Shown: positions 13,219 through 33,598 of the stretch, piece after piece
Numbering within the stretch: position 1 is the stretch's first letter
How the letters are laid out: every line of letters starts with the position of its first letter
Assembly (NCBI RefSeq): GCF_003130405.1
Contig: NZ_QEAS01000020.1
Span: forward strand, 59,027-107,255
Reading direction: 5' to 3'
Source of the DNA: Pararcticibacter amylolyticus
GTDB lineage: Bacteria > Bacteroidota > Bacteroidia > Sphingobacteriales > Sphingobacteriaceae
Length of the DNA stretch: 48,229 nt
Position numbers and translations under genes: made by a program
The notes under the pieces: model-generated
What the model was told of the DNA's origin: nothing
Database searches by the model: none
What the model saw: only the letters and a program-made list of their open reading frames with translations

Positions 13219-13714
13219 TTTTTTGATATTAAGTGTAATAATGCTTTGAAATGCGGGGGCTAAGAGTTATCTTTAGCCTCATATTCAAACTACTGCTACA
13301 CATCAGCAATCTAAAAGTTTTCCCGAGCTCAGACAAACCATAGGAAAGGTATGGCCAAGTTCATGCCTTTCTTTTCTATAAAGATAAATACCCAACAAGT
13401 TAATCTTTATTTTTAAGCTCTTTTGTTGTTCTTATTGTATATTCAATAGTTTTTTGTGAAAAAAAGATCATAACTAGGTTGTATGAAGTTTTTTCAATAT
13501 TAAAGTCAGTGATAGAAGCCTTTTTTGATGAGGTGAGATAGGCATTCTGTCAGATCATAAGGTGATATGAAGTAAATTCGTTTTGGAGGTGATTGATATT
13601 TGAGTGGTCTGGGTCATAAAAATAAATGATCTTAATCATAATTTAATTTAAATGCTTTATAACTCTATTTTTGAAGTTGTTTACTGTAACCTAATAATAT
13701 TAGTGAGGTATAAG
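13219..13714. other. AT-rich intergenic region before the beta-helix gene
   Basis: No protein gene is supported. A weak hairpin (GGCTAA / TTTAGCC, about 13257-13279) follows the ABC gene but lacks a T-tract. The rest is AT-rich, with a candidate -7 element near the end (13666-13673). The change in base composition begins here and continues through the polysaccharide locus. Confidence 0.5.
13666..13673 (+). promoter_or_regulatory. Bacteroidota -7 element TATTTTTG for the beta-helix gene
   Basis: TATTTTTG fits TAnnTTTG. It lies downstream of a possible ATG at 13652 and 41 nt before ATG 13715, and so supports the later start. The -33 box is not obvious. Confidence 0.4.
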
Positions 13715-15088
13715 ATGAAAAGATTATCAAGAAGTTTAATCTTAAAATCAATATCGAAAATATTATTAGTTATTATGAAAGCATTTATTTTTCCTCTTTT
13801 AGTTGTTACTTCGTTTCTGGTTTGTTGTAAGGCTGAGGAAACCGAAATCGTACCAGAAGAAATTACATCAGTTGAGCAGAACCTGACATTGACAGATGTA
13901 ACAAAATCAGGAATTAGCAGCAATGGACTCTCCGATGAAAGTCAAAAAATTCAATCACTTATTGCAAGTAACAAAAAACTCTTTTTTCCAAAAGGAACAT
14001 ATAGAATAAGTAAACCAATCACACTTAGTAAAGTAAATAATCTTCAAATTTTAGGAGAGGAGGGTACTGTTTTTACTACAGATCAGAATAAAATGTTTGT
14101 AGTTTCAGGAAGTATTAAAACCCTGGATATTCAACGGATTTCTTTCATTTCTACTAAGAACAGTACAGCTGAAGACGCCGAGGGTCTGATCTTTATTGCT
14201 AATTATGGCGCAAGTGATGTTATGGATGGGATTAATATTAATCAATGTACATTTTCTATTCCAAACTCGAAGGTTAATGCTATTAAAATGGTAAGCGAAG
14301 GGGCAAATTCATTGGTGAAGAATGTTAATATAACTTATAATAAGTTCTTAAGTATTGGAAGGATGGGTGTTGAGTTTCAGAATCACAATTCTTCTCCAAA
14401 GATAGCCCGGTTCCGCGACTATACCATTAATAATAATTATTTCAATGATATCGGTACGGTTCAAACAGGCTCAGCTCCCTCCTGTATATCGGTTAGCGGA
14501 TATTCTCTGAATGGTAAGATCAATTATAATAAAATCTATGACATGAGAATGAATACAACGTCTAGTGTTTATTATGGAATTGAGAACGCCGGCACAGATG
14601 GACTTGAAACCGTTGGAAATGAAATGTACTCTACTACATATGGTTTTACTGGGATATTAGGTTCGTCTACATATGCTAAGGCTAAATGGATTATTAAAGA
14701 TAATATTATTAATCTTACCGGTAGCTCCAGCAATACTAAAATAAGAGGACTTGAACTTAATAATATAGAAGGAGTTGTTGTCGCAAACAATAAAATACAG
14801 GTTGATGGATATGGTATGAAGTTAGATAACTGCAAGAAGGGAAAGATAACCGGTAATAATGTAGTGGTTACAAAGGCGGGAAATGTACTCTACCTTCAAT
14901 CAGGCAGTGCAACTAATGAGATCAGCAGCAATACGCTTGACGCGAGCCGAGGTTTAGATCATGGAGTAGTGATATTTAATGGTTCAGCAACAAGTGGGAA
15001 CAATGCTTTCCAGAATACATTGATTAAACCAGGTAATAAAAAAGGCGATTATGTAAACTTAAATGGCGCAGTTAATAGCGTAAAGTAA
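13715..15088 (+). CDS. Secreted right-handed beta-helix protein (pectate-lyase-like fold)
   Basis: The product has about 457 residues from ATG 13715, which has GAGG nine bases upstream; ATG 13775 is another possible start. A hydrophobic segment starting MKAFIFPLLVVTSFLVCC is a signal peptide, possibly of a lipoprotein. After it, DESQKIQSLIASNKKLFFPK and GTYRISKPITL match the start of pectate_lyase_3/GH28-type helices, followed by repeated Asn-rich rungs (ITYNKF, INNNYFNDI, INYNKIYDM, VVANNKIQVDG, ITGNNVV). Catalytic residues cannot be assigned, so it could be a polysaccharide lyase, hydrolase or epimerase, or only a binding protein. It converges on the exopolysaccharide locus with 4 nt between stop codons. 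Confidence 0.75.
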   Translation: MKRLSRSLILKSISKILLVIMKAFIFPLLVVTSFLVCCKAEETEIVPEEITSVEQNLTLTDVTKSGISSNGLSDESQKIQSLIASNKKLFFPKGTYRISKPITLSKVNNLQILGEEGTVFTTDQNKMFVVSGSIKTLDIQRISFISTKNSTAEDAEGLIFIANYGASDVMDGININQCTFSIPNSKVNAIKMVSEGANSLVKNVNITYNKFLSIGRMGVEFQNHNSSPKIARFRDYTINNNYFNDIGTVQTGSAPSCISVSGYSLNGKINYNKIYDMRMNTTSSVYYGIENAGTDGLETVGNEMYSTTYGFTGILGSSTYAKAKWIIKDNIINLTGSSSNTKIRGLELNNIEGVVVANNKIQVDGYGMKLDNCKKGKITGNNVVVTKAGNVLYLQSGSATNEISSNTLDASRGLDHGVVIFNGSATSGNNAFQNTLIKPGNKKGDYVNLNGAVNSVK

Positions 15089-15092
15089 GAAT

Positions 15093-15608
15093 TTAATATA
15101 AGTTGTTGAATGCAGACAAAAGATGTAAGGTCGAACTTACTCTTTTGTCTGCATATTTGCTTTCATAGCCAGATATATAAATTGTTTTGATTCCGAGTTC
15201 TTTTGCCGGAATCAAATCGGATTCAGAATCTCCTACAAGTACGGAATTACTAAAGTCAATATTATAAATATCCCCAGCCTTGCGGAAAAGTCCATCTTTG
15301 GGTTTTCGACACTCGCACATATCGTTATTCAGGTGCGGACAAACGAGGAAATGGTCTATATGAGAACCTGTTAATTGGTTTAAGGTCCGATTGATCATTT
15401 CCAGGCGGTCCATCGTCAGCATTCCTCTCCCTACACATCGCTGGTTCGTAACAACAATGATCTGATTAAATAGATTACGAACCCGGGATAAGAAGTAGAC
15501 TACACCCGGAAGAACTTCAATGTCGCAGATATCGAGTACATAGCCAGCTTCAATCTTTTTGTTAAGTACCCCGTCCCTGTCTAAAAAAAGCGTATCATAC
15601 TTTTTCAT
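15093..15608 (-). CDS. gmhB: D-glycero-D-manno-heptose bisphosphate phosphatase (GmhB type)
   Basis: This 171-residue HAD-IIIA phosphatase should remove the C7 phosphate from heptose 1,7-bisphosphate. Motif I is FLDRDGVLN with nucleophile D10 and acid D12; motif II is VVTNQRCVGRG, with Thr; the zinc site C90-x-H92...C98-x-C100 (CPHLNNDMCECRKP) is characteristic of GmhB; VLVGDSESDLIPA is motif IV. The ATG at 15608 lies one base after the hddC stop (TGAAATG), so the two are translationally coupled; a longer frame from 15647 would overlap hddC. A strong hairpin (15112-15152) lies within its last codons. It is the last gene of the polysaccharide locus. Confidence 0.88.
   Translation of the reverse strand: MKKYDTLFLDRDGVLNKKIEAGYVLDICDIEVLPGVVYFLSRVRNLFNQIIVVTNQRCVGRGMLTMDRLEMINRTLNQLTGSHIDHFLVCPHLNNDMCECRKPKDGLFRKAGDIYNIDFSNSVLVGDSESDLIPAKELGIKTIYISGYESKYADKRVSSTLHLLSAFNNLY
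15112..15152. repeat. Strong hairpin inside the 3' end of gmhB
   Basis: The arms are GCAGACAAAAGA-T-GTAAG (15112-15129) and CTTAC-TCTTTTGTCTGC (15136-15152): 17 bp with a single bulged T and a 6-nt loop. It lies within the last gmhB codons and 23 nt past the stop of the convergent beta-helix gene. It could act as a bidirectional terminator, but neither side has a T-tract. Confidence 0.7.
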
Positions 15609-15609
15609 T

Positions 15610-16323
15610 TCAGATAATATTCTTAAGGATCGTCTGAGCTGCCGCATAGTCAGAAGGAATTCCTATGTCGATAAAAGTATTATGATAAATCTTTCCGAAC
15701 ATCGCCAAATCGTTTACCTTATCCTCAAAAAGGTCTTTTTCGAGAGAAAACTTTTTTGGCATATTAAATTGATCTATCAGGGCTTTTTTCATGTAATAAA
15801 TTCCCCCATTGATTATTGTATTTCCTTCTGGAGATAGCCCCTTTTCCTTAAAGCCTATTATTTTGCCGTTTTCTGTAATTGATACACTGCCGTAGCGTTG
15901 TGAATTCTGTATTTTTTTTAAGGCCATGGCCACGCTGGCGGAACTGGATTGTGCAAATTTCTCGAGATCACTCAGGTCTGGATCAAAATAGGTGTCTCCG
16001 TTAATGATGAAAGCGCTTTCTCCTGCTATCTGTTCAAAACCCTTATATACAGCGCCTCCTGTACCAAGCAGATCTTCCTCAATGCTATAGCAGATTTCCA
16101 ATCCGTAATTATTGTGAGGGTTTTCGAGGAAATTTCTGATGATTTCATGTTTGTATCCGACAGCAAGAATTACCCTGGAAATTTTATTTGCCCGAAGATA
16201 GTTTAATGTATATTTCAGGAATGGGACTCCGGCGACCTCAGCCATCGGCTTTGGAATGTCTTTTATTACAGACCTCAGTCTGGTGCCGAGTCCTCCTGCT
16301 AAGATAATCGCTTCGCGTATCAT
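15610..16323 (-). CDS. hddC: D-glycero-alpha-D-manno-heptose 1-phosphate guanylyltransferase (HddC type)
   Basis: This 237-residue nucleotidyltransferase should make GDP-D-glycero-alpha-D-manno-heptose from heptose 1-phosphate and GTP. The N-terminus AIILAGGLGTRLRSVIKDI with PKPMAEVAGVPFLKYTL is the nucleotide-binding signature of sugar nucleotidyltransferases, and ESAFIINGDTYFDPDL holds the metal-binding Asp. Guanylyl rather than thymidylyl specificity is inferred from its place between an HddA-like kinase and GmhB. It starts 12 nt after hddA and couples to gmhB. Confidence 0.85.
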   Translation of the reverse strand: MIREAIILAGGLGTRLRSVIKDIPKPMAEVAGVPFLKYTLNYLRANKISRVILAVGYKHEIIRNFLENPHNNYGLEICYSIEEDLLGTGGAVYKGFEQIAGESAFIINGDTYFDPDLSDLEKFAQSSSASVAMALKKIQNSQRYGSVSITENGKIIGFKEKGLSPEGNTIINGGIYYMKKALIDQFNMPKKFSLEKDLFEDKVNDLAMFGKIYHNTFIDIGIPSDYAAAQTILKNII

Positions 16324-16335
16324 TCAATTCATAGT

Positions 16336-17367
16336 TTATGCGTCGGTTTTCCATGTCATGACTCCTTTATCGTAGAAATTAACTCTTTCTACTTGTCCCC
16401 CCATCTCATGAAGTACATTTCCGAGATGATAGACATAGCAATTCTTTACGTAAAACATCATATACCCACCTCCCCCCGCGCCAGAAATCTTTCCACCCAA
16501 AGCTCCGTTCTTCAATGCGACTTCATAGATTTCATCGACCACAGGGTTGGAGATTTCGTCTGCTGTCTCTTTTTTTGAGAACCAGCTTTCATTTAATAAA
16601 TTTCCTATATCCGTCAATCTTCCCCTGAGAAGAGATTCCTTCATGTTGTATGCTAAGTCTTTGAGAGAATGCATGGCTTCAATTGACTTAGAGGCATTTT
16701 CGCTTACATTTCTTACCTGGGCATCAATAATCTTAGAAGAAAGCCTGGATGTTCCTGTATAATATTGGATAAGGGAAAACTCAAGCTCATAAATATATTT
16801 TTGCTTGATGCGCAATGGATTGACCACAACCCGGTCGGCATAAAACTCCATAAAATTAAATCCGCCGAATGTGGCAGCATATTGATCCTGTTTACCGCCA
16901 CTTAGTCCTAAATCTTCCCGCTCTATGCTGTATGCCAAATGTGCAATATCATAGTCGCCTAAGGGGAGTCCGAGCCATTCTGAAAATGCGGCGACAATGG
17001 CTACAACGAGTGTGGACGATGAACCGAGTCCTGATCCGGGAGGGGCATCAACGTAAGTTTCCAGCTGATAAAACATTGGTTCTTTAATTCTGAACTCTTT
17101 TTTTATCCTGTTGTGGATGCATTTGATTAACGCAAGTTTTGAATCTGTAAGATCAAATTCATCAATATTATTGAATATGTGGTGCTCGTTAATGTCATGA
17201 CATTTTATTACAATTTGAGGTAAATCCAGAGGGATTAAAGTTGCATACGCAAACTTTGTAATCGTGGCGTTCAATATGGCTCCTCCAAACTGATCGCTAT
17301 AAGGGCTTACATCGGTTCCTCCTCCTGCGAGGCCTAGCCTAAGAGGTGCTCTGGATCGTATTATCAT
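16336..17367 (-). CDS. hddA: D-glycero-alpha-D-manno-heptose 7-phosphate kinase (HddA type)
   Basis: This 343-residue GHMP-family kinase should phosphorylate the anomeric carbon of heptose 7-phosphate. The N-terminal motif RSRAPLRLGLAGGGTDVSPY is the signature of HddA-like sugar kinases. Motif 2 PPGSGLGSSSTLVVAIVAAF binds ATP phosphates, and motif 3 KISGAGGGGYMMFYV lies near the C-terminus. Length is normal. It begins 36 nt after the cupin gene and is followed by hddC and gmhB, the expected order of steps in the GDP-heptose pathway known from Aneurinibacillus S-layer glycans. The first enzyme, GmhA isomerase, is not in the window. Confidence 0.88.
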   Translation of the reverse strand: MIIRSRAPLRLGLAGGGTDVSPYSDQFGGAILNATITKFAYATLIPLDLPQIVIKCHDINEHHIFNNIDEFDLTDSKLALIKCIHNRIKKEFRIKEPMFYQLETYVDAPPGSGLGSSSTLVVAIVAAFSEWLGLPLGDYDIAHLAYSIEREDLGLSGGKQDQYAATFGGFNFMEFYADRVVVNPLRIKQKYIYELEFSLIQYYTGTSRLSSKIIDAQVRNVSENASKSIEAMHSLKDLAYNMKESLLRGRLTDIGNLLNESWFSKKETADEISNPVVDEIYEVALKNGALGGKISGAGGGGYMMFYVKNCYVYHLGNVLHEMGGQVERVNFYDKGVMTWKTDA

Positions 17368-17403
17368 AAGAAAGTCGGGTCTAATTTGTGATAATGGAAA
17401 TGC

Positions 17404-17760
17404 TTAAGGAATAAGCATCAGACAAGAATACAGAAAACGTAAGGATGACGAGCATTCAATGGAATGAAATGACCTGGCAGGAATGTTAAAGAATGCCCCT
17501 GTAGTAGCTGGGTAAGTAGTTCCATCAATGTGAAAAGTTCCTTCGCCTTCCAGTACATAATAGCATTCGTCCATATCTGGGTGCGAATGCGGGGGAATTA
17601 CTTCGCCTTTCTGCAATATTCCGACGGCTATTTGTTTCACCTGCATTTTTTCGTTGAAGCCTTTGCAAAGTATTTGTTTTAAGCCGCTAGTATGGGAAGT
17701 GGGAATTGGAACTATACTGCTTATGTTCGTATAGATCAATCTTTTTTGTTCATCTTGCAT
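17404..17760 (-). CDS. Single-domain cupin protein
   Basis: This 118-residue cupin_2 protein starts at ATG 17760 (MQDEQKRLIYTNISS); a longer frame to 17904 would run into the preceding epimerase gene and is unlikely. Motif 1 is PPHSHPDMDECYYVLEGEG, with metal-binding His-x-His and Glu, and motif 2 is FNIPARSFHSIE, with the fourth metal-ligand His. It is too short for an RmlC-type epimerase. It lies between a GME-like epimerase and hddA, so it may act on a heptose or heptose phosphate as an isomerase or mutarotase, or it may be regulatory. No specific function can be read from the sequence. Confidence 0.8.
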   Translation of the reverse strand: MQDEQKRLIYTNISSIVPIPTSHTSGLKQILCKGFNEKMQVKQIAVGILQKGEVIPPHSHPDMDECYYVLEGEGTFHIDGTTYPATTGAFFNIPARSFHSIECSSSLRFLYSCLMLIP

Positions 17761-17785
17761 GATTTTGCGTTCTGAGAATAAAGGA

Positions 17786-17808
17786 CCGGGGAAGTGAAAC
17801 TTCCCCGG
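17786..17808. repeat. Perfect 10-bp hairpin between GME-like and cupin genes
   Basis: CCGGGGAAGT (17786-17795) and ACTTCCCCGG (17799-17808) form a perfect 10-bp stem with a 3-nt loop in the 77-nt gap. In the direction of transcription (minus) it is followed by TCCTTTATT, a poor U-tract. It may be a partial terminator or an mRNA-stability hairpin that lowers or separates expression of the downstream hdd genes. Confidence 0.75.
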
Positions 17809-17837
17809 AAGGAAGCCCATTGTAAAGAGGTAGAGAA

Positions 17838-18845
17838 TTATAGGGTCATTTCTTCGGTGGCAGATACCTTCTCTTTGGTTGCTAACACCTGTTCTTCTAT
17901 CCATTTGTAAGTCTTGGAGATTCCAACTCTTAAGGGTACAGAGGGTTCCCAGTCGAGCTTTTGCATAATGAGCTTATTATCAGAATTCCGGCCTCTTACT
18001 CCGATAGGGCCTGTAATATGCTTTATTGTTATTTCCTTTCCAGCAATTTCAGCTACCATTTTAACCAGGTCATTTATTGGGAGCATCTCTTCAGAGCCGA
18101 TATTGACAGGCCCCGAAAAGTCGCTGTTCATGAGCCTTCTAACAGCCTCTACACATTCGTCGATAAACAGAAAAGAGCGGGTTTGCTTTCCGTCTCCCCA
18201 AATTTCTATTTCTCCTCCATTTTCTGCCATGGCAACCTTTCTGCATACAGCAGCCGGAACTTTTTCTTTTCCCCCATCCCAGGTGCCCTGAGGCCCGAAG
18301 ATGTTATGGAAACGGCCGACTTTAACAGAGATATTACAGTTTTTCTGATAGGTGAGGTAAAGTCTTTCGCTAAAGAGCTTTTCCCAGCCATATTCGCTGT
18401 CAGGCGCAGCGGGATAAACAGTATCTTCTGAGCATTTTGGATTATCGGGATCCATTTGATTATATTCCGGATAAACACATGCGGAAGAGGAATAGAATAT
18501 TTTTTTTACATTATTCAAACGGCTAACTTCAAGCATATTCAGGTTGATTAAGGCCGAATTATGCATTACTGCCGCATCATTTTCTCCTGTAAATAGATAA
18601 CCAGCACCACCCATGTCGGCTGCCAACTGATAGACTTCATCAATTTCCCGATCAAACAAAGATTTACAGATGTTAAAATCGCGTAAATCTCCCAGAACGA
18701 AATCGTCTGAATTGTTGTTGTTGTATTCGTTAGCTTTGATGTCTACTCCTCTAACCCAGTATCCTTCACTCTTCAATCTGTTAACAAGATGGCCGCCAAT
18801 AAATCCTCCGGCGCCACAAACAATAGCACTTTTGTTTCTGTTCAT
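17838..18845 (-). CDS. GDP-mannose 3,5-epimerase-like SDR
   Basis: This 335-residue extended SDR binds NAD through GAGGFIGG (residues 11-18). Plant GME hallmarks are present throughout: LAADMGGAGYL, SSSACVYPEYNQ with the acid/base Cys (C123), the Y152-x3-K156 pair in EYGWEK, GTWDGGKEKVPAA with the second acid/base Lys (about K195), GDGKQTRSFLFIDECVEA, and GPIGVRGRNSDN. The chemistry should therefore be C3 and/or C5 epimerisation of a GDP-hexose or GDP-heptose via a C4-keto intermediate. Its position just before the hdd genes suggests GDP-D-glycero-D-manno-heptose as a substrate; this is inference, and GDP-mannose remains possible. Confidence 0.85.
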   Translation of the reverse strand: MNRNKSAIVCGAGGFIGGHLVNRLKSEGYWVRGVDIKANEYNNNNSDDFVLGDLRDFNICKSLFDREIDEVYQLAADMGGAGYLFTGENDAAVMHNSALINLNMLEVSRLNNVKKIFYSSSACVYPEYNQMDPDNPKCSEDTVYPAAPDSEYGWEKLFSERLYLTYQKNCNISVKVGRFHNIFGPQGTWDGGKEKVPAAVCRKVAMAENGGEIEIWGDGKQTRSFLFIDECVEAVRRLMNSDFSGPVNIGSEEMLPINDLVKMVAEIAGKEITIKHITGPIGVRGRNSDNKLIMQKLDWEPSVPLRVGISKTYKWIEEQVLATKEKVSATEEMTL

Positions 18846-18974
18846 AAATCTGTTTGTTATAATTAATTGATTTCTAAAAAATATTTAAGACAAGCATTGA
18901 GATCAGCAGTCATAGGCTGATAGCTGATTCCGGCTTTTTAAATTCGACAGGTAATATACTTTTGGTAACTAAGG

Positions 18975-20105
18975 TTATAGAGAAAGGGCAAGCTCCTGCT
19001 TTTTGCCTGCAGTTTCATTGAACATTGTTTGGTATGATTTTACCAGCTTCTCCATTGAGTAATTGCTGTTAACATATTCTTTCTGTCTTTTCCTGAGCTC
19101 GAGGTAGTCATCTTCTGTACGTTCTATGGCTTCTGCCAATACCCGATCAATGTCATTGGGTATCTCTAGGTCAAACATATAACCAGATGTCTGCTCCTCA
19201 AAGAACTCTCTAAAACCAACAGCATTGCTTGCTATTACAGGTGTATTGTAATGATATGCAATCATCAGTGGTCCGCTTTGCGTTGTGTCCCGATATGGAA
19301 GAATGAGATAATCGGAACTTAAGAAGTACCGAGGAATATCTTCGTTCTTAATGAATCCGATATTAACAGAAACTAATTCTTTGTTTAAAACAAGAGGAGC
19401 GTACAGTTCTTCCCAGTCTGTACATCTTCCGGCGATCAGCAGTCTGAAATTAGAATATCGCTTTGAGAGCCTGTTGACAGCTTTAAGCAAAATATCAAGG
19501 CCTTTATAATGCTGGATGTTTCCGAAAAATAAGAATGTCACATTCTTGTTTTTGCGTGGAGTAAGTATCTCCGGTTTACCAAAACCAATTAAAGGAAGAG
19601 GGATTGTATAGATTTTTTTTCCGGGATACCTCTCATTAAGTAAACGCGATTGTGATTTTGAGTAAGTTAAAAAACGGTTGAAATTTTTGAATAAAATTGT
19701 TTTACTAAGGCTTACTAGTTTGTCAAAAGCTGTTTTACTATGATTACTTACATCATGCATTGCAATAATTGTATTTTTGGGATTCAGTAACAATAGCATT
19801 AAGTTAAGATAGAGCTGATCGAAATTGGCAAAGAGAACCACGTCGGGCTTTGTAGACTTAATTGTTTTAATTATTCTGTAATAACTGAGAAACAGAAGCG
19901 GATTTCTGAAGCGATATTTTAGTTTAAAGGGCAAGAATCTGATATTATGCTGCTCGCAATATGATGAAAGCTCTTCTTCCGTATAGTTGGAGTTTTTTGA
20001 AGGAATAATTACTCCGTAGGTTAACTCATATTCCTCCGGAAAATGGTGGATCAGATTTATCTGATTGTCTGAGTATGCTGAACTTGTTAAATAGAAAACT
20101 TTCAT
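18975..20105 (-). CDS. Glycosyltransferase family 4 protein
   Basis: This 376-residue GT-B enzyme is predicted to add one sugar to the polymer repeat unit at the cytoplasmic membrane face. The C-terminal GT1/GT4 domain shows VTFLFFGNIQHYKGLDILLK, RLLIAGRCTDW, and the donor-site region SDYLILPYRDTTQSGPLMIA followed by TPVIASNAVGFREFF; the usual first Glu of the EX7E motif is replaced in this stretch. Its start codon overlaps the stop of the HldD-like gene (ATGA), so the two are translationally coupled. Sugar specificity cannot be read. Confidence 0.88.
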   Translation of the reverse strand: MKVFYLTSSAYSDNQINLIHHFPEEYELTYGVIIPSKNSNYTEEELSSYCEQHNIRFLPFKLKYRFRNPLLFLSYYRIIKTIKSTKPDVVLFANFDQLYLNLMLLLLNPKNTIIAMHDVSNHSKTAFDKLVSLSKTILFKNFNRFLTYSKSQSRLLNERYPGKKIYTIPLPLIGFGKPEILTPRKNKNVTFLFFGNIQHYKGLDILLKAVNRLSKRYSNFRLLIAGRCTDWEELYAPLVLNKELVSVNIGFIKNEDIPRYFLSSDYLILPYRDTTQSGPLMIAYHYNTPVIASNAVGFREFFEEQTSGYMFDLEIPNDIDRVLAEAIERTEDDYLELRKRQKEYVNSNYSMEKLVKSYQTMFNETAGKKQELALSL

Positions 20106-21094
20106 AATGAGCTGGATATGAGATTGGTTTCGTCTTTCTCTTCGTGCAAATCGATTAATTCATTAATATATAGCTTGACCTTTTCTTCGTTGTTGCTGGT
20201 GTAACGCTGTACTATTTCATGAAGATTCTCTGCGCGGGTAAAAAATTGAAAACTGTCTGTTAAGTCATCCGGCATGGGAATAAGACGGACGAGGCGATCG
20301 CCGGAATTTTTGAGTCCTCTTTCAATGAATGAATTGGATACAATTTCGGCGAGGGACTTATGTGAAATGGGATTTCCGGAGCCAAGGTTATAGATTCCGT
20401 TTGGTAAAGAGGAATTGTACAATATATCCAAAATGACATTTGCAACATCTTCTACCCAAACATAATCTCTTTGGATTTCTTTATTAAAAAGATCTATATA
20501 GCCATTATTCTGAATAAATGAAAAGAAACGATGGGGCAGGCTGGCATTTTTGCCTTTATGAGATTCTCCGTGGCCAAAGATATTGAAGAATCTCAATCCA
20601 ATTACCCTGTTTGTGAATGTGTCGATATTATTCAGAACTAATTTGTCAAACATCCATTTTGACCAGGAATATACATTGTGAGGGTGTTCGAAATTATCCC
20701 CGACTACACAGTTATATGAATTTCCGTATACGGCAGAGCTTGAGGCATATAGAAGCGGGATATTTCTCCTGATGCAGAAGTTTAAGTAGAATTTAGAGTG
20801 TTCGTAATTTGAGGCCATCATCAGATTTGCGTCTTTAATTAATACGTCCGCATTGGCCCCGATGTGAAGAATGGCTTCAATTTCATATTTGTCCAGCTGT
20901 TGTTCAATTTCTTTTAATTCATTTTTATAGGATATATAATCTACGAATGAGCAGTTTTTTATATTCCAGAATTTCTGTTCGTCGTAGTTGTCTATAATGA
21001 TAATATTTGTTACTCCCCGTTGATTGAGCTTTTTTATAAGATTTGATCCTACGAATCCTGATCCTCCTGTTACAACAATTGTCTTTTGTTTCAT
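20102..21094 (-). CDS. NAD-dependent epimerase, HldD (heptose 6-epimerase)-like
   Basis: This 330-residue extended SDR has the Rossmann motif GGSGFVGSN (residues 10-18). HldD-specific features are ASSSAVYG, the Y142-x3-K146 pair in VYSWSKWMFDKLV, GHGESHKGKNAS with Lys at about 180 (equivalent to the HldD catalytic Lys178), RDYVWVEDVANVIL and IPMPDDLTDSFQFFT. HldD inverts C6 of ADP-beta-heptose, but the window carries a GDP-heptose pathway and no hldE, so the substrate may be a GDP-heptose. This is inference. It lies in mid-operon, overlapping the downstream GT4 by 4 nt. Confidence 0.82.
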   Translation of the reverse strand: MKQKTIVVTGGSGFVGSNLIKKLNQRGVTNIIIIDNYDEQKFWNIKNCSFVDYISYKNELKEIEQQLDKYEIEAILHIGANADVLIKDANLMMASNYEHSKFYLNFCIRRNIPLLYASSSAVYGNSYNCVVGDNFEHPHNVYSWSKWMFDKLVLNNIDTFTNRVIGLRFFNIFGHGESHKGKNASLPHRFFSFIQNNGYIDLFNKEIQRDYVWVEDVANVILDILYNSSLPNGIYNLGSGNPISHKSLAEIVSNSFIERGLKNSGDRLVRLIPMPDDLTDSFQFFTRAENLHEIVQRYTSNNEEKVKLYINELIDLHEEKDETNLISSSL

Positions 21095-21141: not shown

Positions 21142-22155
21142 TTAGCGAATAACCTGGTCCATCATAATGTTGTGTTTGGCACGGCCATAGTTGTTGATAA
21201 CGGTCTCATGCGCATTTTTTCCAATAAGTTCTTTGTCAAATAAGTCTGATTCGAGGTTTTTGATGATTTGAGGGATTTCCTTTTCTGCATTGTGTACGAC
21301 AAAGCCATTAGCTTCATTGCTGATCATTTCTTTCAGAATGCTGGAAGAAGATGAAATTACGATACGTTTATGATACATTGCTTCAAGTGTAAAAAGCTGT
21401 CCGGCTGCACCTGAGTCATCTTTGATCAGGATAACACATCCTTCGGATCTTTTGATGAGCTCACTGAAGTCTTCCTTCTGAACGTCATTCAGGATAATGA
21501 CATTGTTAGGGAGTTTTGCTCCTTTTACGTCATCATTTAATGTTGAGGAACAGATTATCAGGGGATGAGAAATGTTTTCAAATACCTTAATAAGTGTTGC
21601 ATAGTCGCGGTGACTGTAGCCACCGGAGAAATAATATTTTTCCGGAAGTTGTTCCCATTCAACTCTTTTTGTATAATCCGTGTAAATTGATTTTCCGGGA
21701 TTAAATACCAGAGGTACATAGTAGAGTGCGCCGGGGCTTAAACCGAGTTCTTCAGAGTACAGTTTACGCTCATATTCTGAATATACAATCAACTTATCTT
21801 TATGAGTGAAAAGCAGGGTGAAGATTTTTTTGAATATGCTGAAATACTTCTTGTTGTGGAGGAAAAAGCCGGCCCAGATAATTGTAGTGTTCTTATTTAT
21901 AAGACCAAGCTTACGGAAAATAAGAATCGGTACAGAAATAAAGAATACACATATAATCTGATCTGCTTTTCTTATCTCTTTCAAATGACCTAAACACTTC
22001 AATGTATCTTTGATCATTTTTAGAATCAATATAAACTTAGGGAATATGGATTTAATATCATTATTTAATCTTATAACCTGTAAGGAATTTTCTTTGCAGT
22101 AGTTTTCCAGGTTACCGGGTAGAAATGCAGATGTTATAACAATCGTTTTCATCAT
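21142..22155 (-). CDS. Glycosyltransferase, GT4-like
   Basis: This 337-residue protein is predicted to be a GT-B glycosyltransferase. The N-terminal half is poorly conserved and has a hydrophobic patch (ADQIICVFFISVPILIF) that may dock on the membrane. The C-terminal half has IICSSTLNDDVKGAKLPNNV, then FSELIKRSEGCVILIKDDSG with AAGQLFTLEAMYHKRIVISS in the donor-binding position, and GFVVHNAEKE. A family assignment below GT-B is uncertain. It starts 12 nt after the acyltransferase gene. Confidence 0.75.
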   Translation of the reverse strand: MMKTIVITSAFLPGNLENYCKENSLQVIRLNNDIKSIFPKFILILKMIKDTLKCLGHLKEIRKADQIICVFFISVPILIFRKLGLINKNTTIIWAGFFLHNKKYFSIFKKIFTLLFTHKDKLIVYSEYERKLYSEELGLSPGALYYVPLVFNPGKSIYTDYTKRVEWEQLPEKYYFSGGYSHRDYATLIKVFENISHPLIICSSTLNDDVKGAKLPNNVIILNDVQKEDFSELIKRSEGCVILIKDDSGAAGQLFTLEAMYHKRIVISSSSSILKEMISNEANGFVVHNAEKEIPQIIKNLESDLFDKELIGKNAHETVINNYGRAKHNIMMDQVIR

Positions 22156-22167
22156 ACGAAATCTGTT

Positions 22168-23250
22168 TTATAAAACGTTTGATCCAAATTGTTTTCTTAT
22201 ATGTACAAAGGGTTTTTCGACCAGATAGTAAGAGGTCAGAGAAAATATTATCGTCAAAGAAATAGTGGCTGCCATCCATTTGGCTGAATGGACCCCCTCG
22301 AAAAAGTTTTCCTGAAAGTATTCATTCATCATCATAATGCACAGTCCGTTAAAAAGATAAAGAGAGTAGCTGAGTTTTCCGATGAAGATCAGTGCGGGAC
22401 TTTCAATAAGTTTTTTTAACAGGGAATCAGATGGATAGAACATTGGACCAGGGAGGAGCAGCATTAAAGCCAAACCCTGAATAGAGTATCGAATTGATTC
22501 TCTGAAGAGCGGGTCGCGGTATAAGAGCGAAATGAGAATTAAAGCAACTCCTATAAATACGGTCAATTTATTGTTCAAAATACCCATGTAGGTTTTGCTA
22601 TTTTGTTTATAGATCAGAATAGCAGATAAACAGCCGTAGATGATCGAATCCACTCTTGTATGAGTTGAATGGTAAATGATTAAGCTCGATTGGTTAAAAT
22701 CATTATTGAACATGAGTATAAACAGTCGTATGAGTAAAGAGAGGATTGCTATCAGTATTAGTATGGATATAAGGTGCCGGGTGTTTTTATTAAAGAACAA
22801 AAAGATAAAAGGGAAGAAAAGATAGAAGTGCTCTTCAACTGCCAGTGACCATAGAGCATCAAATACACGCTCACAATCTAACGGAGCCGCAGATCTGAAG
22901 AAGCTGATGTAATAATTTGTATAGTAAAAAATGCCTGAGAAGATGTAGGGTTTAACGGATGCATTGCTGCAGGTAAGAAATATAAGAGCTGAAGTAACAG
23001 CTATCATCGTAAGTAATGCGGGGTAAAGTCTGAGTAATCTTCTTACATAGAATTTCTTGATATCAATTGTTTGGTTTTTGTGATATTCGAAGATTAAGAG
23101 TCTTGTAATTAGAAATCCACTTATGAAGAAGAACAGTGTGACCCCAAAGCCACCGGGGATAAAGTTGCCAAAACCGAGATGTCCTAAGATCACTAACATT
23201 ATTGCAATTCCCCGGAACCCATCGAAGTATGGAAGATATGTATTGTTCAT
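22168..23250 (-). CDS. Membrane O-acyltransferase, acyltransferase-3 (OafA-like)
   Basis: This 360-residue inner-membrane protein has roughly ten hydrophobic segments. N-terminal PYFDGFRGIAIMLVILGHLG carries the catalytic His of the acyltransferase-3 family, followed by TLFFFISGFLITRLLIFEY and the conserved ALWSLAVEEHFYLFFPF. KLSYSLYLFNGLCIM is the C-terminal family segment. Such enzymes O-acetylate polysaccharide or lipid-linked repeat units with acetyl-CoA. In this locus it probably decorates the repeat unit or the finished polymer. Confidence 0.9.
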   Translation of the reverse strand: MNNTYLPYFDGFRGIAIMLVILGHLGFGNFIPGGFGVTLFFFISGFLITRLLIFEYHKNQTIDIKKFYVRRLLRLYPALLTMIAVTSALIFLTCSNASVKPYIFSGIFYYTNYYISFFRSAAPLDCERVFDALWSLAVEEHFYLFFPFIFLFFNKNTRHLISILILIAILSLLIRLFILMFNNDFNQSSLIIYHSTHTRVDSIIYGCLSAILIYKQNSKTYMGILNNKLTVFIGVALILISLLYRDPLFRESIRYSIQGLALMLLLPGPMFYPSDSLLKKLIESPALIFIGKLSYSLYLFNGLCIMMMNEYFQENFFEGVHSAKWMAATISLTIIFSLTSYYLVEKPFVHIRKQFGSNVL

Positions 23251-23297
23251 TTCGTAGTACTATAGCGTGTGTATATAAAAGCTTTTCTTACGTTTAA

Positions 23298-24212
23298 CTA
23301 TCTGATGAGCCATTGTTTGCAGTACCTCCAGCAGATGCCTCTGAAATTGTAATAGAAATTACTTATAAAAAATATTATAAATTGAAGTGGTGACCTTGTG
23401 GCTATCAGGGAATAGTGATAAATGAACCCTATGTTATTCGAAGACCTGAAGTCAGTTAAAGAACGGTAGATATCTTTTAGTGTTAAATGCTCTTGTGAGT
23501 CGAGTGAGAATGAATGCTGAGGTAGTTCGTAGACAATTGCATCGTAAGACACCAGCAGATGATATCCTTCTTTTTTTGCGCGGAGAGGTATATCAAGATC
23601 TCCGCGGTGTTTGAAGCGTTTTTGATCGAAGAGTCCCGTTTTATGGAAGACTTCAACGGGAATGTATAGTCCCCGTCCGTATAAATCAAACGAGTCGGTT
23701 ACATACCCTTTTTGGAAATTGAGGCGTGGAACTTTATAATTTATTCTTTTCTCCTTTGCGAACCATGCATTTATGTCTCTTCCTCCATAATTGATCAGGT
23801 CCCTGGAATCGGGAACCGATGTCGCGCAGCCTATTAAGCATCCGGGGTGTTTAGAGGCTGTTTTAATCAAAACATGTAACCAGTCTTCTTCTAACATTAC
23901 ATCATCATTCTGAAGGATTACTGCTTTGAGATTTTCAAAGTGCTGCAGGCTATAGTTTATACCCAGGTTTACTGCTCCTGTCCACCAGAGATCACCTTCG
24001 CTTTCCACAACATGGATGTATGGATAGGCCTTTTTGATCAATTCCGCTGTCCCATCGGTCGATCCGTCGTCAACCATCACAATTTGGATGTTGTATTCAG
24101 GAGAGGATGCTTGTTTGTTATAATAATCAACAGATCTGGAGATGTATGTGAGACCTTGCTTGGTTACTTCGATTCGGTTATAAACCGGTATTATAATAGT
24201 AATAGTATCCAT
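23298..24212 (-). CDS. Glycosyltransferase family 2 protein
   Basis: This GT-A enzyme of about 304 residues starts at ATG 24212 (MDTITIIIPVYNRIEV). A 13-codon extension to 24251 would overlap the upstream gene and precede the conserved fold. VMVDDGSTDGTAELI is the nucleotide-binding motif, SEGDLWWTGAVNLGI is typical of rhamnosyl-type GT2 enzymes, and VILQNDDVML is the metal-binding DXD region. FYGRGLYIP-like sequence (LYGRGLYIPVEVF) and HRGDLDIPLRAKKEGY form the acceptor side. It adds a sugar to the repeat unit; the sugar is unknown. Confidence 0.88.
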   Translation of the reverse strand: MDTITIIIPVYNRIEVTKQGLTYISRSVDYYNKQASSPEYNIQIVMVDDGSTDGTAELIKKAYPYIHVVESEGDLWWTGAVNLGINYSLQHFENLKAVILQNDDVMLEEDWLHVLIKTASKHPGCLIGCATSVPDSRDLINYGGRDINAWFAKEKRINYKVPRLNFQKGYVTDSFDLYGRGLYIPVEVFHKTGLFDQKRFKHRGDLDIPLRAKKEGYHLLVSYDAIVYELPQHSFSLDSQEHLTLKDIYRSLTDFRSSNNIGFIYHYSLIATRSPLQFIIFFISNFYYNFRGICWRYCKQWLIR

Positions 24213-24229
24213 GGGTGGGTTAGTACGTT

Positions 24230-25525
24230 TTAAGCGGTTGTAAGTGAGCATTCTGATGCTTTGCTTTGTCTGGAATTGCTTTCTCCGAGTATTTCGCGGT
24301 ATGTGTTAACGACGGTGCGGACAATTTCTTTCGGATTGTGTCTTGTTTGTGCTAACATGCGTGCATTTTTACCATATGCAATTAGTTCAGACGGAGAATC
24401 ATAGAATTCCAGAATTCTTCCGGCAAGCTCGTATGGGTCATGTGAATTGTATAAAATACCTGTTTTCTCATGTTGTATTATAGTAGAGATCCCACCAACA
24501 TTTCCTGCTATAATGGGCATTCCAAGCAGCATCGCCTCACATATGCTGTTAGGGCTATTTTCAATGTGAGAAGGATGTATATAAATATTTGATGATAGCA
24601 GCTCCTGTATTAATGACTCTTCATCTTTTGCACCAGCCAGGATTATTCCGTTGTGGGAGAAACGTGTTTTTACCAATTTTTCAACAAGCCTGACCAGTTC
24701 GTGATCCTGATTGATTCCGAGGATGGTCCATTTGAAGTTGAAATTGAGTTTCTCTTTAAGAATCTTTGCTGTCTCAAGAATGATCTCTAAACCTTTGAAT
24801 AGGTAGGGGTTGATCGTTGTGACAATCTTCAGTTCTGTGTCAGGATGATTATTCCAATGTCTGTTATAAAACGAAGGCCTAAGCATTTCCTCACATTTTA
24901 TATAGCGGAACTGATCTTTATACAGACGGATGTAATTCTTGTCCCAATGGGTCCGTCCGAAGAATAACTGACAGTTTGAAATGATTTTCTTTTCCCTGAT
25001 CCCCCGCTTTTTGAAGAACTTATGTTCGAAATAGTATCCTGTTCTAAAAATAATTGATTTTATAGGCGAATTAAACAGTACCTGCCATTTTGAAACTCCT
25101 TTTGGCAGCCATGCATATGTACAAGGATTAATGAGCCCCTGTAAGTGTATAACAACCGGGATTTTTGTTAATTCAAGGATTTCCCCCATTCCCGTTTCTG
25201 TTCCAAAGAGATGAATAATGTCTGGTTTAAAATCGTCAAGAACTTTTTGTAAGCCTTCTGTATTTACATCATATAGAGCGGAAGAGAATTTTTGATATAT
25301 TTTCCCGGTTAGGGAGGTGTATTTTTGCTTTAGGGGGTAGTATGTGACATTTTTATATTCGATCTTAAACTGATCATGCCTAAGAAAAAAGCACAGACCT
25401 AATGTAATGCTTTTTTCATCCATGAGATAGTTTTGTAACGAACTGATCCACCCGCATCCGGGATTATTATAATTTAATAATTCACTCGCATTGGCGGGTG
25501 TTTGAGTTAACCAGAGAATCCGCAT
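24230..25525 (-). CDS. Glycosyltransferase family 4 protein
   Basis: This 431-residue GT-B glycosyltransferase has IIHLFGTETGMGEIL in the acceptor domain and, in the donor domain, LKIVTTINPYLFKGLEIILE, ILAGAKDEESLIQEL, NIYIHPSHIENSPNSICEAM (EX7E) and MPIIAGNVGGISTIIQHEKT. These are standard GT4 elements. It begins 29 nt after the Wzy-like gene. The sugar and linkage are not predictable. Confidence 0.9.
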   Translation of the reverse strand: MRILWLTQTPANASELLNYNNPGCGWISSLQNYLMDEKSITLGLCFFLRHDQFKIEYKNVTYYPLKQKYTSLTGKIYQKFSSALYDVNTEGLQKVLDDFKPDIIHLFGTETGMGEILELTKIPVVIHLQGLINPCTYAWLPKGVSKWQVLFNSPIKSIIFRTGYYFEHKFFKKRGIREKKIISNCQLFFGRTHWDKNYIRLYKDQFRYIKCEEMLRPSFYNRHWNNHPDTELKIVTTINPYLFKGLEIILETAKILKEKLNFNFKWTILGINQDHELVRLVEKLVKTRFSHNGIILAGAKDEESLIQELLSSNIYIHPSHIENSPNSICEAMLLGMPIIAGNVGGISTIIQHEKTGILYNSHDPYELAGRILEFYDSPSELIAYGKNARMLAQTRHNPKEIVRTVVNTYREILGESNSRQSKASECSLTTA

Positions 25526-25554
25526 AATTGTGTTTTTTGAGAAAGTAAGAATGT

Positions 25555-26892
25555 TTAAAGATTGTTATTGGCTATTTTTAATCCGGTATGGAGATGGCTG
25601 GGAGTGATCCGATTGGGCGAATCAATAGTTTTGTCAATAATAATCCGTACTCTTTTTCTGTTTGGCAATGGGGCCATGTATAATAGTGTCAGACATTTAA
25701 AAACGAGAAAAATAAAATATACTTCACTGAATGAGAGAATCAGAACAACAAACAGAGAAAGATAAGCGAGGCTAGAAGGGATGTTTCCAATCTTCGTGAG
25801 CTGCTTAAAAGACAGGGCGATTGAAATAATGGAAAAAATGAAAAAGAATAAACCATATCTTGTCAGTAGATCTGTTATTCCATTATTGCGTAATACCTCT
25901 TTATCGTCTCCGGCTACGCGAGTATCCTGGTGAGAACCGCGGCCAAAAAAAATAAAAAATGCATTTTCTCTTATCTCTGCTAAATCCAGGAGAGCACTGG
26001 CTACCCGGCCGTCTCCGCCTTTTGTAAATGCATAGTATTCAGCATCATCTATTTCTTCCTGTATTTTCTTTCCCAGAAATTCAATCTTAAAAAACGATAT
26101 AGCAGAAACGGCGAGAAGAATAATCATTAGTCCCCATTTTACTCCCGGGCTTTTTATTTTAAAGAATGCATATCCGCATAGGAAAACGGCAAAAGCAAGG
26201 TAAGTTGTAGTTGAGAATGTAGTAATGATTGCGACAACAAGTATTATATTATCTTTTTTTAACCACGTTTTGGTGGTCAACATATCGAAAATTAATGCAA
26301 TTAAAAGATAGCCGCCAAAAGCTCCAGGTTCCCAGAATGGTCCGCTATTCCTTACCAGTCCTTCGAAAAAGTCGGGAGGAAAGTTCATTATAAAGATGTT
26401 ATGGGAAGTGCTTTCCCATCCATATGCTTCTGCTGTTTTTGAGATATGAATAGGAGAGGCTGAGATTAAAGTATCACTAAAACCCGGTATTATTAGCATT
26501 GGGATAAAAAGCAATGAAGCGATAGCGGCAATAATAACGAGGGTCTTTTTATATAAATAGATAAAATTTGTCCCGAGTATTGCTATACTAAAACAAGCAG
26601 TAGTAAATAGCAGTATCTGATTTATAGCTGTTGTAATATAAAATGCTCCCCAAAAAGCCGTTTGGAATAGCATGAGCAATATAAAGAACGAGCTGTATTT
26701 GAAAACCCATCTTAAATCAGGTTTATACATGATAACTCCTGCAAGGCTATAGAGAAATGTAGTGATGTAAACTAACTTATCGTTTACAAACATCGGAAAA
26801 CCCGAAGAAATTATTAAGATCAGAACAAGCCCGGTCTGGTAAACTTTATCTCTGAACGGCAGATTTTTATATTTTAGCGCGATGTTCATCAT
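25555..26892 (-). CDS. Wzy-like polysaccharide polymerase
   Basis: This 445-residue integral membrane protein has about ten hydrophobic segments and a long central periplasmic loop containing RNSGPFWEPGAFGGYL, the short motif common in Wzy and O-antigen-ligase family proteins. The following loop carries KGGDGRVASALLDLAEIREN and GRGSHQDTRVAGDD. Given a Wzx-like flippase and a Wzc-like kinase in the same locus, it should polymerise lipid-linked repeat units in the periplasm. Sequence conservation in this family is low, so identification relies on topology, motif and context. Confidence 0.82.
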   Translation of the reverse strand: MMNIALKYKNLPFRDKVYQTGLVLILIISSGFPMFVNDKLVYITTFLYSLAGVIMYKPDLRWVFKYSSFFILLMLFQTAFWGAFYITTAINQILLFTTACFSIAILGTNFIYLYKKTLVIIAAIASLLFIPMLIIPGFSDTLISASPIHISKTAEAYGWESTSHNIFIMNFPPDFFEGLVRNSGPFWEPGAFGGYLLIALIFDMLTTKTWLKKDNIILVVAIITTFSTTTYLAFAVFLCGYAFFKIKSPGVKWGLMIILLAVSAISFFKIEFLGKKIQEEIDDAEYYAFTKGGDGRVASALLDLAEIRENAFFIFFGRGSHQDTRVAGDDKEVLRNNGITDLLTRYGLFFFIFSIISIALSFKQLTKIGNIPSSLAYLSLFVVLILSFSEVYFIFLVFKCLTLLYMAPLPNRKRVRIIIDKTIDSPNRITPSHLHTGLKIANNNL

Positions 26893-26925
26893 ACTGGATA
26901 TTGTCTTTAGATATCTGCCCCGCGG

Positions 26926-27795
26926 CTATACTGTCTGCCAGACTGCTTGTAAAGAGTTAATGTTAACGTCTATAAATTTCTTCCAGAATGACGGATCGTA
27001 TTTTTCCCAGGCATGACAGCCAAACGGCAATTCATTATTGTTGAGCTTTAGAAGTTCCTCCGGCAATACTTCAAAACTAAATCTTAAAGCTTCTTCCGGC
27101 CTGGCAACATTAAACCATTTGAAATATCTGGGCACAATAAGCCCCCAGAATTCATCTTCATAGCCCATGTGAGGTTTAATTATCTTCATTAAATAATTTA
27201 TACCAAGCGTTTTTCTTAGGAGATTATAATTATTCCCCTGAAGAAACTGGTATAAGGTATACATAAACAGGTAATTCCGGATAATTCGCTTGTTGCCTGA
27301 AATTTCTATAAAAGAGCTAAGTTTTCTTAATGAGAAACCGCCATTTCCTACACCCTTAAATTGGAGTGGTTTAGCGGGTTCGCTATTTCCAACAAACCAC
27401 GGCGCGCCTATATAGTCGAAATTTAAACTGCACCAATAGTCCAGCTGATCAGAAAAAACATACGCATCAGTATGATATATCAGCATGAAATCGTAATCCG
27501 AAAATTTTGAATAGAATTTGTATTGAACAAAAAGCCGATTGCCCCGCACCGGGTTACCAAAGTATTTATCATCAATGAGAATTGATCTGACGTTTAATGG
27601 TTGGAACAGTTCGATGTATTCTGTGACATTAACGTAAGAAGGATGAATAAAAAAGATGTCCCTGTTACCTAATATGGTTTTTAGCTGTAAAAGAGATTGT
27701 ATCTCGCCAGGGAGCTGCTGATTGAAGGCTTTGTAAACAGGCGTTACTATTGCTACGTTGGCCATTTTTAATGTTTCAGGTTTGTTCATACACAA
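26926..27795 (-). CDS. DUF5672 protein, putative glycosyltransferase
   Basis: The 289-residue protein (perhaps 279 from ATG 27765, MANVAIVTPVYKAF) fits DUF5672. Visible features are VAIVTPVYKAF, FMLIYHTDAYVFSD with a DxD-like element, FDYIGAPWFVGNSEP, GVGNGGFSLRKLSSFIEI, and GYEDEFWGLIVPRYF near the C-terminus. The pattern of VTPVY, acidic motif and GNGGFSLR resembles GT-A glycosyltransferases, and members are common in polysaccharide loci, but no reaction is established to my knowledge. It lies between the flippase and the polymerase, so a role in building the repeat unit is likely. Confidence 0.78.
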   Translation of the reverse strand: MCMNKPETLKMANVAIVTPVYKAFNQQLPGEIQSLLQLKTILGNRDIFFIHPSYVNVTEYIELFQPLNVRSILIDDKYFGNPVRGNRLFVQYKFYSKFSDYDFMLIYHTDAYVFSDQLDYWCSLNFDYIGAPWFVGNSEPAKPLQFKGVGNGGFSLRKLSSFIEISGNKRIIRNYLFMYTLYQFLQGNNYNLLRKTLGINYLMKIIKPHMGYEDEFWGLIVPRYFKWFNVARPEEALRFSFEVLPEELLKLNNNELPFGCHAWEKYDPSFWKKFIDVNINSLQAVWQTV

Positions 27796-27832
27796 CTTCA
27801 GTTAATAGTTGGTAAAAGAGGATGACATCAGC

Positions 27833-29203: not shown

Positions 29204-29251
29204 ATTGCTTTTTCTGGTATTGTGTTTTTGCTTATGATTTGATTTTTAATA

Positions 29252-31612: not shown

Positions 31613-31675
31613 ATTGATGCTTTATGTGATAGACAATGGAGAGAATTAGATCCGGACAGATTTATTGTAGGGTAT

Positions 31676-33569: not shown

Positions 33570-33598
33570 GGTTTACTCTCCTGGATTGAGCCTCTTTG

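Follow-up and report, generated by a model that had tools for sequence, protein, structure and literature searches.

An HldD-like candidate 6-epimerase of GDP-heptose encoded in an exopolysaccharide operon of Pararcticibacter amylolyticus

Results

Gene content of the locus

We analyzed a 48,229-nucleotide (nt) stretch of the Pararcticibacter amylolyticus genome (assembly GCF_003130405.1, contig NZ_QEAS01000020.1; G000:C72:59027-107255 in our numbering, G000 being this genome), hereafter the window, which contains genes for the synthesis of GDP-heptose next to genes for two short-chain dehydrogenases/reductases (SDRs). One of these SDRs resembles the ADP-heptose 6-epimerase HldD and is the main subject of this work; the other resembles GDP-mannose 3,5-epimerase (GME). 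The seven genes of interest (21094-15093) are intact open reading frames (ORFs) on the minus strand:

15093..15608, minus strand: GmhB-like HAD phosphatase (heptose 1,7-bisphosphate 7-phosphatase); the ORF runs to 15647, with the start, by eye, likely at 15608
15610..16323, minus strand: HddC, heptose-1-phosphate guanylyltransferase, by family and structure matches
16336..17367, minus strand: HddA, GHMP heptose-7-phosphate kinase, by family and structure matches
17404..17760, minus strand: small cupin; the ORF runs to 17904, with an internal ATG at 17760 the probable start (by eye)
17838..18845, minus strand: GME-like SDR (GDP-mannose 3,5-epimerase family, loop type A)
18975..20105, minus strand: GT4 glycosyltransferase, candidate heptosyltransferase
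20102..21094, minus strand: HldD-like SDR, proposed GDP-heptose 6-epimerase

The initial annotation of this DNA had placed HddA, HddC, GmhB, the GME-like and HldD-like proteins and the cupin together, and all of these genes were recovered; its list omitted the GT4 gene (18975-20105), which overlaps the HldD-like gene by 4 nt. The HddA, HddC and GmhB homologues lie in tandem, separated by gaps of 12 and 1 nt. The seven genes belong to an 18-gene minus-strand run that extends from a Wza-type gene (34369) to GmhB (15093) with intergenic gaps of -53 to 129 nt, and we therefore regard the run as an exopolysaccharide operon of which the heptose and epimerase genes form the distal part. The arrangement is not a product of chance, as HddA, GT4, the HldD-like gene and GME occur together again in 3 further Arcticibacter genomes.

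The GDP-heptose branch

HddA scored 391.9 bits against NF049969 (cut-off 600), with 3k85, a 'D-glycero-D-manno-heptose 1-phosphate kinase', as its best solved chain (E=5.6e-102). The corresponding values for HddC were 239.3 bits against NF049965 (cut-off 300) and 5xhw, a 'Putative 6-deoxy-D-mannoheptose pathway protein' (E=4.1e-36), and those for the GmhB-like protein 115 bits against NF006506 (cut-off 178) and 4pnh, a 'D,D-heptose 1,7-bisphosphate phosphatase' (E=2.6e-19). The set of HddA-type kinase, HddC-type guanylyltransferase and GmhB-type phosphatase is thus present, at scores below the equivalog cut-offs. Orthologues of HddA are 85% identical in 3 related genomes (G001, G004 and G005), while those of HddC and of the GmhB-like protein are 57-60% and 54-55% identical, respectively, in loci L013 and L015.

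Three of the four pathway enzymes had been assigned to the locus by the initial annotation. That count holds for the locus itself; the fourth enzyme, GmhA, is encoded elsewhere in the genome, where a single match at E<=1e-10 (G000:C106:278437) exceeds its cut-off. The idea that the pathway is broken by the lack of GmhA in the cluster was rejected on the basis of this match. We also surveyed 395 genomes of the phylum, 37 of which contained HddA-type matches; 34 remained after dropping G367, G475 and G372 (E 5e-22 to 2e-21), the matches of G367 and G475 lying in frames of 949-963 amino acids (aa). These 34 genomes hold 36 HddA-type loci, for which neighborhoods of about 10 kb were inspected, some stretches ending at contig ends. 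Of the 34 other loci, 22 have a GmhA-type gene no more than about 10 kb from HddA. Taken together, these findings support the view that the locus provides a nucleotide-activated (GDP-)heptose to the exopolysaccharide operon.

Genomic company of the HldD-like gene

Among 6 genomes of the genus Arcticibacter, counting that of the window, HddA, GME and the HldD-like gene occur in the same 4, with HddA split over two contig ends in G005; searches of G002 and of G003, which is 87% complete, detected none of them. The HldD-like and GT4 genes are neighbors in all 4 genomes with HddA. HddA directly follows GT4 in 3 of them (G001, G004 and G005); in the window the two are separated by GME and the cupin. 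HddC and GmhB come after HddA in the window, G001 and G004; the G005 contig ends too early to show them.

Canonical HldD, one GmhA match and HldE domain II were each found above cut-off in all 6 genomes, in a search that covered these three proteins. This result is consistent with an ADP-heptose route separate from the window-type locus, and a second HldD would therefore not be needed for ADP-heptose. No HldE-type domain was detected by Pfam among the 18 operon genes. Two observations on these genes stand on their own: HldE domain II of G002 gave equal scores on two contigs (C1:5879-6298 and C2:460677-461096), as if duplicated, and the HldD match of G012 is spread over two adjoining open frames (L016 9362-10218).

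More widely, we scanned GTDB species genomes using an alignment of four sequences and two exact peptide patterns, an approach that may have missed further relatives. The scan returned 8 loci, comprising 3 from Arcticibacter and 2 from metagenome-assembled genomes (MAGs) of Prevotellaceae, which together made up the top 5 (E<=9e-97), and 3 weak ones (E 9e-13 to 1e-5). The HldD-like matches of the MAGs stand at 47-49% identity, and both MAGs display the gene order HddA', HldD-like, GmhA and an HddC'-GmhB fusion; in L090 the successive gaps measure 6, 4 and -4 nt. No GME match was present in the two stretches. Thus, the HldD-like gene lies beside HddA-type genes in 6 of the 6 HldD-like loci found. 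A search of plasmids returned no HldD-like match beyond the level of canonical HldD.

Sequence features of the HldD-like protein

The HldD-like protein of the window scored 265.5 bits against TIGR02197, for which the cut-off is 274.6, and its best solved chain was 1eq2 (E=2e-53). Scores of 258-265 bits were obtained for the four Arcticibacter proteins and 248.7 for that of L090, all short of the cut-off. The structures closest to its AlphaFold model (mean predicted local distance difference test score, pLDDT, 77.6) are HldDs (4ej0, 2x6t and 1eq2). Consistent with extended SDRs of the HldD type, residues S116, Y140, K144 and K178 (E. coli numbering), the catalytic Ser/Tyr/Lys of HldD and its second Lys, are kept in all 6 HldD-like proteins.

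We compared these 6 proteins with 13 distinct canonical HldDs (12 loci plus E. coli) in 14 alignment rows, one protein appearing twice. Leaving out residue 1, 17 positions that are invariant in all 14 canonical rows are altered in 6 of 6 HldD-like sequences, including T81V, A117S, T119V, L137H, M181N, V184L/I, H187R, A240P, F243H and Y272F. At position 199, 12 of the 14 canonical rows have K and every HldD-like protein has D; between 201 and 209, the HldD-like proteins have a shorter loop than canonical HldD. Several of the altered positions presumably fall within the nucleotide-binding half of the SDR fold. The HldD-like proteins form a clade with a local support of 0.999 in a FastTree tree. 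That of the window is 38% identical to E. coli HldD and 31% identical to the canonical HldD of its own genome; given the latter value, we rejected the possibility that it is a recent duplicate.

The GME-like protein

The best solved chain for the GME-like protein is 2c59, the Arabidopsis GME (E=4.5e-100); no GME model was among its NCBIfam matches. Six of six catalytic positions are kept in the alignment, the catalytic Cys, Lys and Arg presumably being positions 145, 217 and 306. Ser143, Tyr174 and Lys178, as numbered in PMC8787198, are the further catalytic residues of GME, and the roles of all six are described in PMC8787198 and PMC6678494. Two loop types occur among the 20 other phylum GMEs examined: 14 (L067-L080) bear the motif GA[GE][YF]..F.G together with an insert of two residues, and 6 (L081-L086) have an Arabidopsis-like form that lacks the insert. 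The loop of the window protein (GAGY-F-TG, two-residue insert) is of the former kind, type A, which may differ in substrate. No heptose-specific GME residue signature was apparent in the motifs compared, and the GMEs found in heptose contexts occupy two places in the GME tree rather than a single clade.

The initial annotation had proposed that the GME-like enzyme acts on heptose. Counting GME at E<=1e-50, we found it in 23 of the 395 phylum genomes and HddA-type genes in 34; both were present in 3 (G000, G174 and G230) versus 1.98 expected, which corresponds to chance level (hypergeometric P=0.32) and fails to bear out the proposal. In G174 the two genes are on separate contigs. A second comparison set the 23 GME genomes, 3 of them with HddA-type genes, against 40 chosen genomes lacking GME, of which 1 had such genes (Fisher P=0.13). 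Neighborhoods were fetched for 20 of the 22 GME loci of other genomes (G277 and G472 were left out, and several stretches end at contig ends), and no HddA, HddC or GmhB homologue was found in 19 of the 20. Conversely, GME lies within about 10 kb in 2 of the 36 HddA-type loci, namely the window's own and that of G230.

G230 is the exception in both surveys. This unrelated genome carries a tight operon (L070 9675-15371) with the order HddC', HddA', GmhA, a GmhB::WecG fusion and GME, in which GME overlaps the end of the heptose operon; the overlaps amount to 10 to 37 nt when starts are set at the earliest possible site. Identities are 29% for HddA', 28% for HddC' and 69-71% for GME. By eye, genes of UDP-sugar type lie nearby.

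The position of GME is variable within the genus. In G001 and G005 it lies upstream of the HldD-like gene; in G004 some 5 kb separate the two, and GME there neighbors a relative of the wzy-like gene of the window. The cupin adjoins GME in 3 of the 4 Arcticibacter loci (2 of the 3 relatives). From these gene orders, we conclude that GT4 and the heptose genes accompany the HldD-like gene, and that the cupin accompanies GME. The window's genome also holds two ManC-like matches, both under the family cut-off, which point to a capacity for GDP-mannose synthesis. The shifting position of the GME block relative to the heptose genes, these ManC-like genes, and the GME-cupin pairs described below that lack heptose genes further weaken the proposal that GME acts on heptose. 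Overall, the GME-like protein appears catalytically intact in its residues, with GDP-mannose slightly favored as the substrate.

Three further observations concern GME and HddA-type loci. In G165 the ORF that holds GME stays open for about 280 residues before the GME domain begins (L067 8808-10631), possibly a fusion. A GT11-like transferase gene lies, by eye, close to GME in L077 (12090-13001), and a GT11 match (PF01531, 29 bits) lies upstream of HddA' in L090 (8108-8947), as if the transferred sugars were of the GDP-beta-L type.

The cupin

The cupin matched Cupin_2 (6.6e-15) and no sugar-epimerase family. Residues H58, H60, E65 and H99 of the trimmed protein are invariant in 3 of 3 sequences and, we assume, fit the usual metal-ligand pattern. 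Its AlphaFold model, built from an alignment of 3 sequences, has a mean pLDDT of 74.1, and the 50 Foldseek matches listed, at 13-30% identity, are a mixture of small cupins that includes KdgF, phosphomannose isomerase and an oxalate-decarboxylase-like protein. A related query against the G004 stretch yielded nothing but short chance matches (E of 2 or more). A related cupin (31-35% identity) adjoins GME in L068 (9167-9508) and L071 (8715-9125), with no heptose genes in either stretch, suggesting that the cupin handles the GME product.

Neighboring genes

The rest of the operon and its flank comprise the following features:

21142..34369, minus strand: remaining exopolysaccharide operon, with glycosyltransferases, an acyltransferase, DUF5672, a Wzz/GNVR-ATPase (Wzc-type), a WecG/TagA-type transferase and a Wza-type export protein
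within 21142..34369, minus strand: two Pfam-less proteins (445 and 456 aa), assigned as Wzy and Wzx by nothing more than their size and position
13652..15088, plus strand: protein with weak NosD-type similarity (19.2 bits, cut-off 300)

The NosD-type-like protein is kept beside the module at 51-52% identity in G001 and G004 (L015 5087-6379 and L013 14213-15520). By eye it has a hydrophobic N-terminal stretch, and it may act on the polysaccharide.

Discussion

Proposed pathway and alternatives

From the gene content, conservation, adjacency and residue conservation observed, we infer the following reactions and their order. GmhA, supplied in trans, would convert sedoheptulose-7-phosphate to heptose-7-phosphate, from which HddA, GmhB and HddC would in turn produce GDP-heptose. 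The HldD-like SDR would then invert C6 through a transient oxidation to give GDP-L-glycero-alpha-D-manno-heptose, and the GT4 enzyme encoded beside it would transfer the epimerized heptose. A comparable inversion of an ADP sugar through oxidation and reduction at C6 is described in PMC10680097. GME and the cupin would constitute a separable second block, in which C3/C5 epimerization could yield an L-configured GDP-sugar (L-gulo or L-galacto) from GDP-mannose, somewhat more likely, or from GDP-heptose. We consider this scheme, in which GDP-heptose is made, inverted at C6 by the HldD-like protein and transferred by GT4 into the exopolysaccharide, to be the best explanation and a reasonably probable one. 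The HldD-like protein is well tied to the GDP-heptose pathway and is probably its C6-epimerase. Thus, of the epimerized heptose predicted initially, the part that assigns an HldD-type 6-epimerase to the GDP-heptose branch is supported, given canonical HldD in all 6 genus genomes and the setting of the HldD-like gene, which is surrounded by GDP-heptose genes in two lineages.

Several points weigh against this scheme. HddA, HddC, GmhB and the HldD-like protein are strong matches to their NCBIfam models, yet each falls under the curated equivalog cut-off. When a six-sequence profile was run over the 395 phylum genomes, scoring the best 5 or fewer candidates per genome, only the window's own protein exceeded 220 bits (594.9), the next-best score being 218.4, the level of canonical HldD. 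There was likewise no HldD-like match (E<=1e-70) in 86 genomes of another family, a scan run without a positive control. With 1 of 395 phylum genomes and none of 86, the association with heptose genes rests on few cases; the HldD-like gene is within about 10 kb in just 1 of 36 phylum HddA-type loci, the window's own, and the Arcticibacter loci, inherited or moved as one unit, amount to nearly one event. As for the residues, the 6 HldD-like sequences represent two lineages only, the canonical set comes mostly from one bacterial class plus E. coli, and the altered positions, read from sequence, are only candidate base contacts.

An alternative view of the HldD-like protein is that it is just a second ADP-heptose 6-epimerase, giving extra ADP-L,D-heptose for the exopolysaccharide. 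It belongs to the family expected of such an enzyme, and its catalytic residues and nearest folds (4ej0, 2x6t and 1eq2) fit as well. We nevertheless regard this role as improbable, since canonical HldD is already present in 6 of 6 genus genomes, no HldE-type domain was detected by Pfam in the operon, positions fixed in canonical HldD are altered, and the HldD-like gene lies beside HddA-type genes at all 6 HldD-like loci found. With respect to GME, there is about an even chance that it acts on GDP-mannose only, in which case the exopolysaccharide would contain an (epimerized) heptose with L-galactose or L-gulose in parallel, and no doubly epimerized heptose. This possibility is a branch of the C6-inversion scheme and is compatible with its HldD-like part. 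It is favored by the chance-level co-occurrence of GME and HddA-type genes under both tests, the 19 of 20 GME neighborhoods free of HddA, HddC and GmhB homologues, the GME-cupin pairs of L068 and L071, the scattering of heptose-context GMEs in the tree and the two sub-cut-off ManC-like matches. Arguing against it, the 4 Arcticibacter genomes that carry HddA also carry GME, albeit at varying places in the locus, GME was not found in the 2 without HddA, and the GME gene of G230 overlaps the end of a GmhA/HddA'/HddC'/GmhB operon. The same genus co-presence and independent G230 operon, together with the intact catalytic residues, speak for a GME that acts on GDP-heptose, alone or after the HldD-like protein, to give GDP-D- or GDP-L-glycero-beta-L-gulo/galacto-heptose with one enzyme versus the three of Campylobacter. 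We hold this possibility to be distinctly less likely, as there is no enrichment in the phylum, no heptose-specific GME clade, and no GME within about 10 kb of 34 of the 36 HddA-type loci, some stretches of which end at contig ends. The remaining, smaller share of probability falls to another substrate or an inactive enzyme.

Comparison with known systems

Relative to HldD/RfaD, the ADP-L-glycero-D-manno-heptose 6-epimerase, the HldD-like protein shares fold, family, the catalytic Ser/Tyr/Lys and the second Lys, but differs in its GDP-type context, altered fixed positions, sub-cut-off TIGR02197 score and the presence of a canonical copy elsewhere in the genome. In common with the known GDP-heptose pathway, the window contains HddA, HddC and GmhB homologues in tandem and has GmhA available elsewhere in the genome; in contrast to it, the cluster itself is without GmhA. 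In a comparison by description, the GME-like protein shares family and catalytic residues with GM35E of M. fumariolicum (PMC6678494). Its A-type loop differs from the Arabidopsis-type loop.

In the open-licence literature searched, we found no report of GDP-L-glycero-manno-heptose. Work on HldD together with GDP-heptose was limited there to Helicobacter pylori, and work on bacterial GME and heptose to everninomicin and methanogen SDRs, with nothing else on point. The HldD-like clade, whose members occur in the company of GDP-heptose genes in two distinct lineages, is an expressible candidate for a GDP-heptose 6-epimerase. If this assignment is correct, it would supply a sequence family for the missing type of C6-epimerization reaction as well as access to L-glycero GDP-heptoses, and an HldD annotation next to HddA/HddC genes should then not be equated with an ADP-heptose enzyme.

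A further described parallel is the capsule of C. jejuni. The Campylobacter C3/C5-epimerase has a cupin fold. In the account given in PMC10680097, GDP-heptose is modified by the C4-dehydrogenase Cj1427, the C3/C5-epimerase Cj1430 and the C4-reductase Cj1428, and the window would start from the same GDP-heptose and likewise epimerize it for a surface polysaccharide. In contrast to C. jejuni, the three-enzyme set was not recognized by family description, the 18 operon genes including no more than two SDRs and a single Cupin_2 protein, and the place of the Campylobacter three-enzyme route is taken by a GME-type SDR. According to PMC10680097, C6 epimerization is required to explain L-glycero-D-ido-heptose in two Campylobacter serotypes, the origin of the L-glycero C6 is unexplained in HS:3 and HS:4, where no C6-epimerase was identified in the gene clusters, and substrates L-configured at C6 were unavailable to that 2023 study. 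The window, in contrast, has a candidate for the C6-epimerase that the 2023 study could not find. Epimerized GDP-heptoses are thus already known from C. jejuni, and the locus described here would represent a variant of this GDP-heptose kind.

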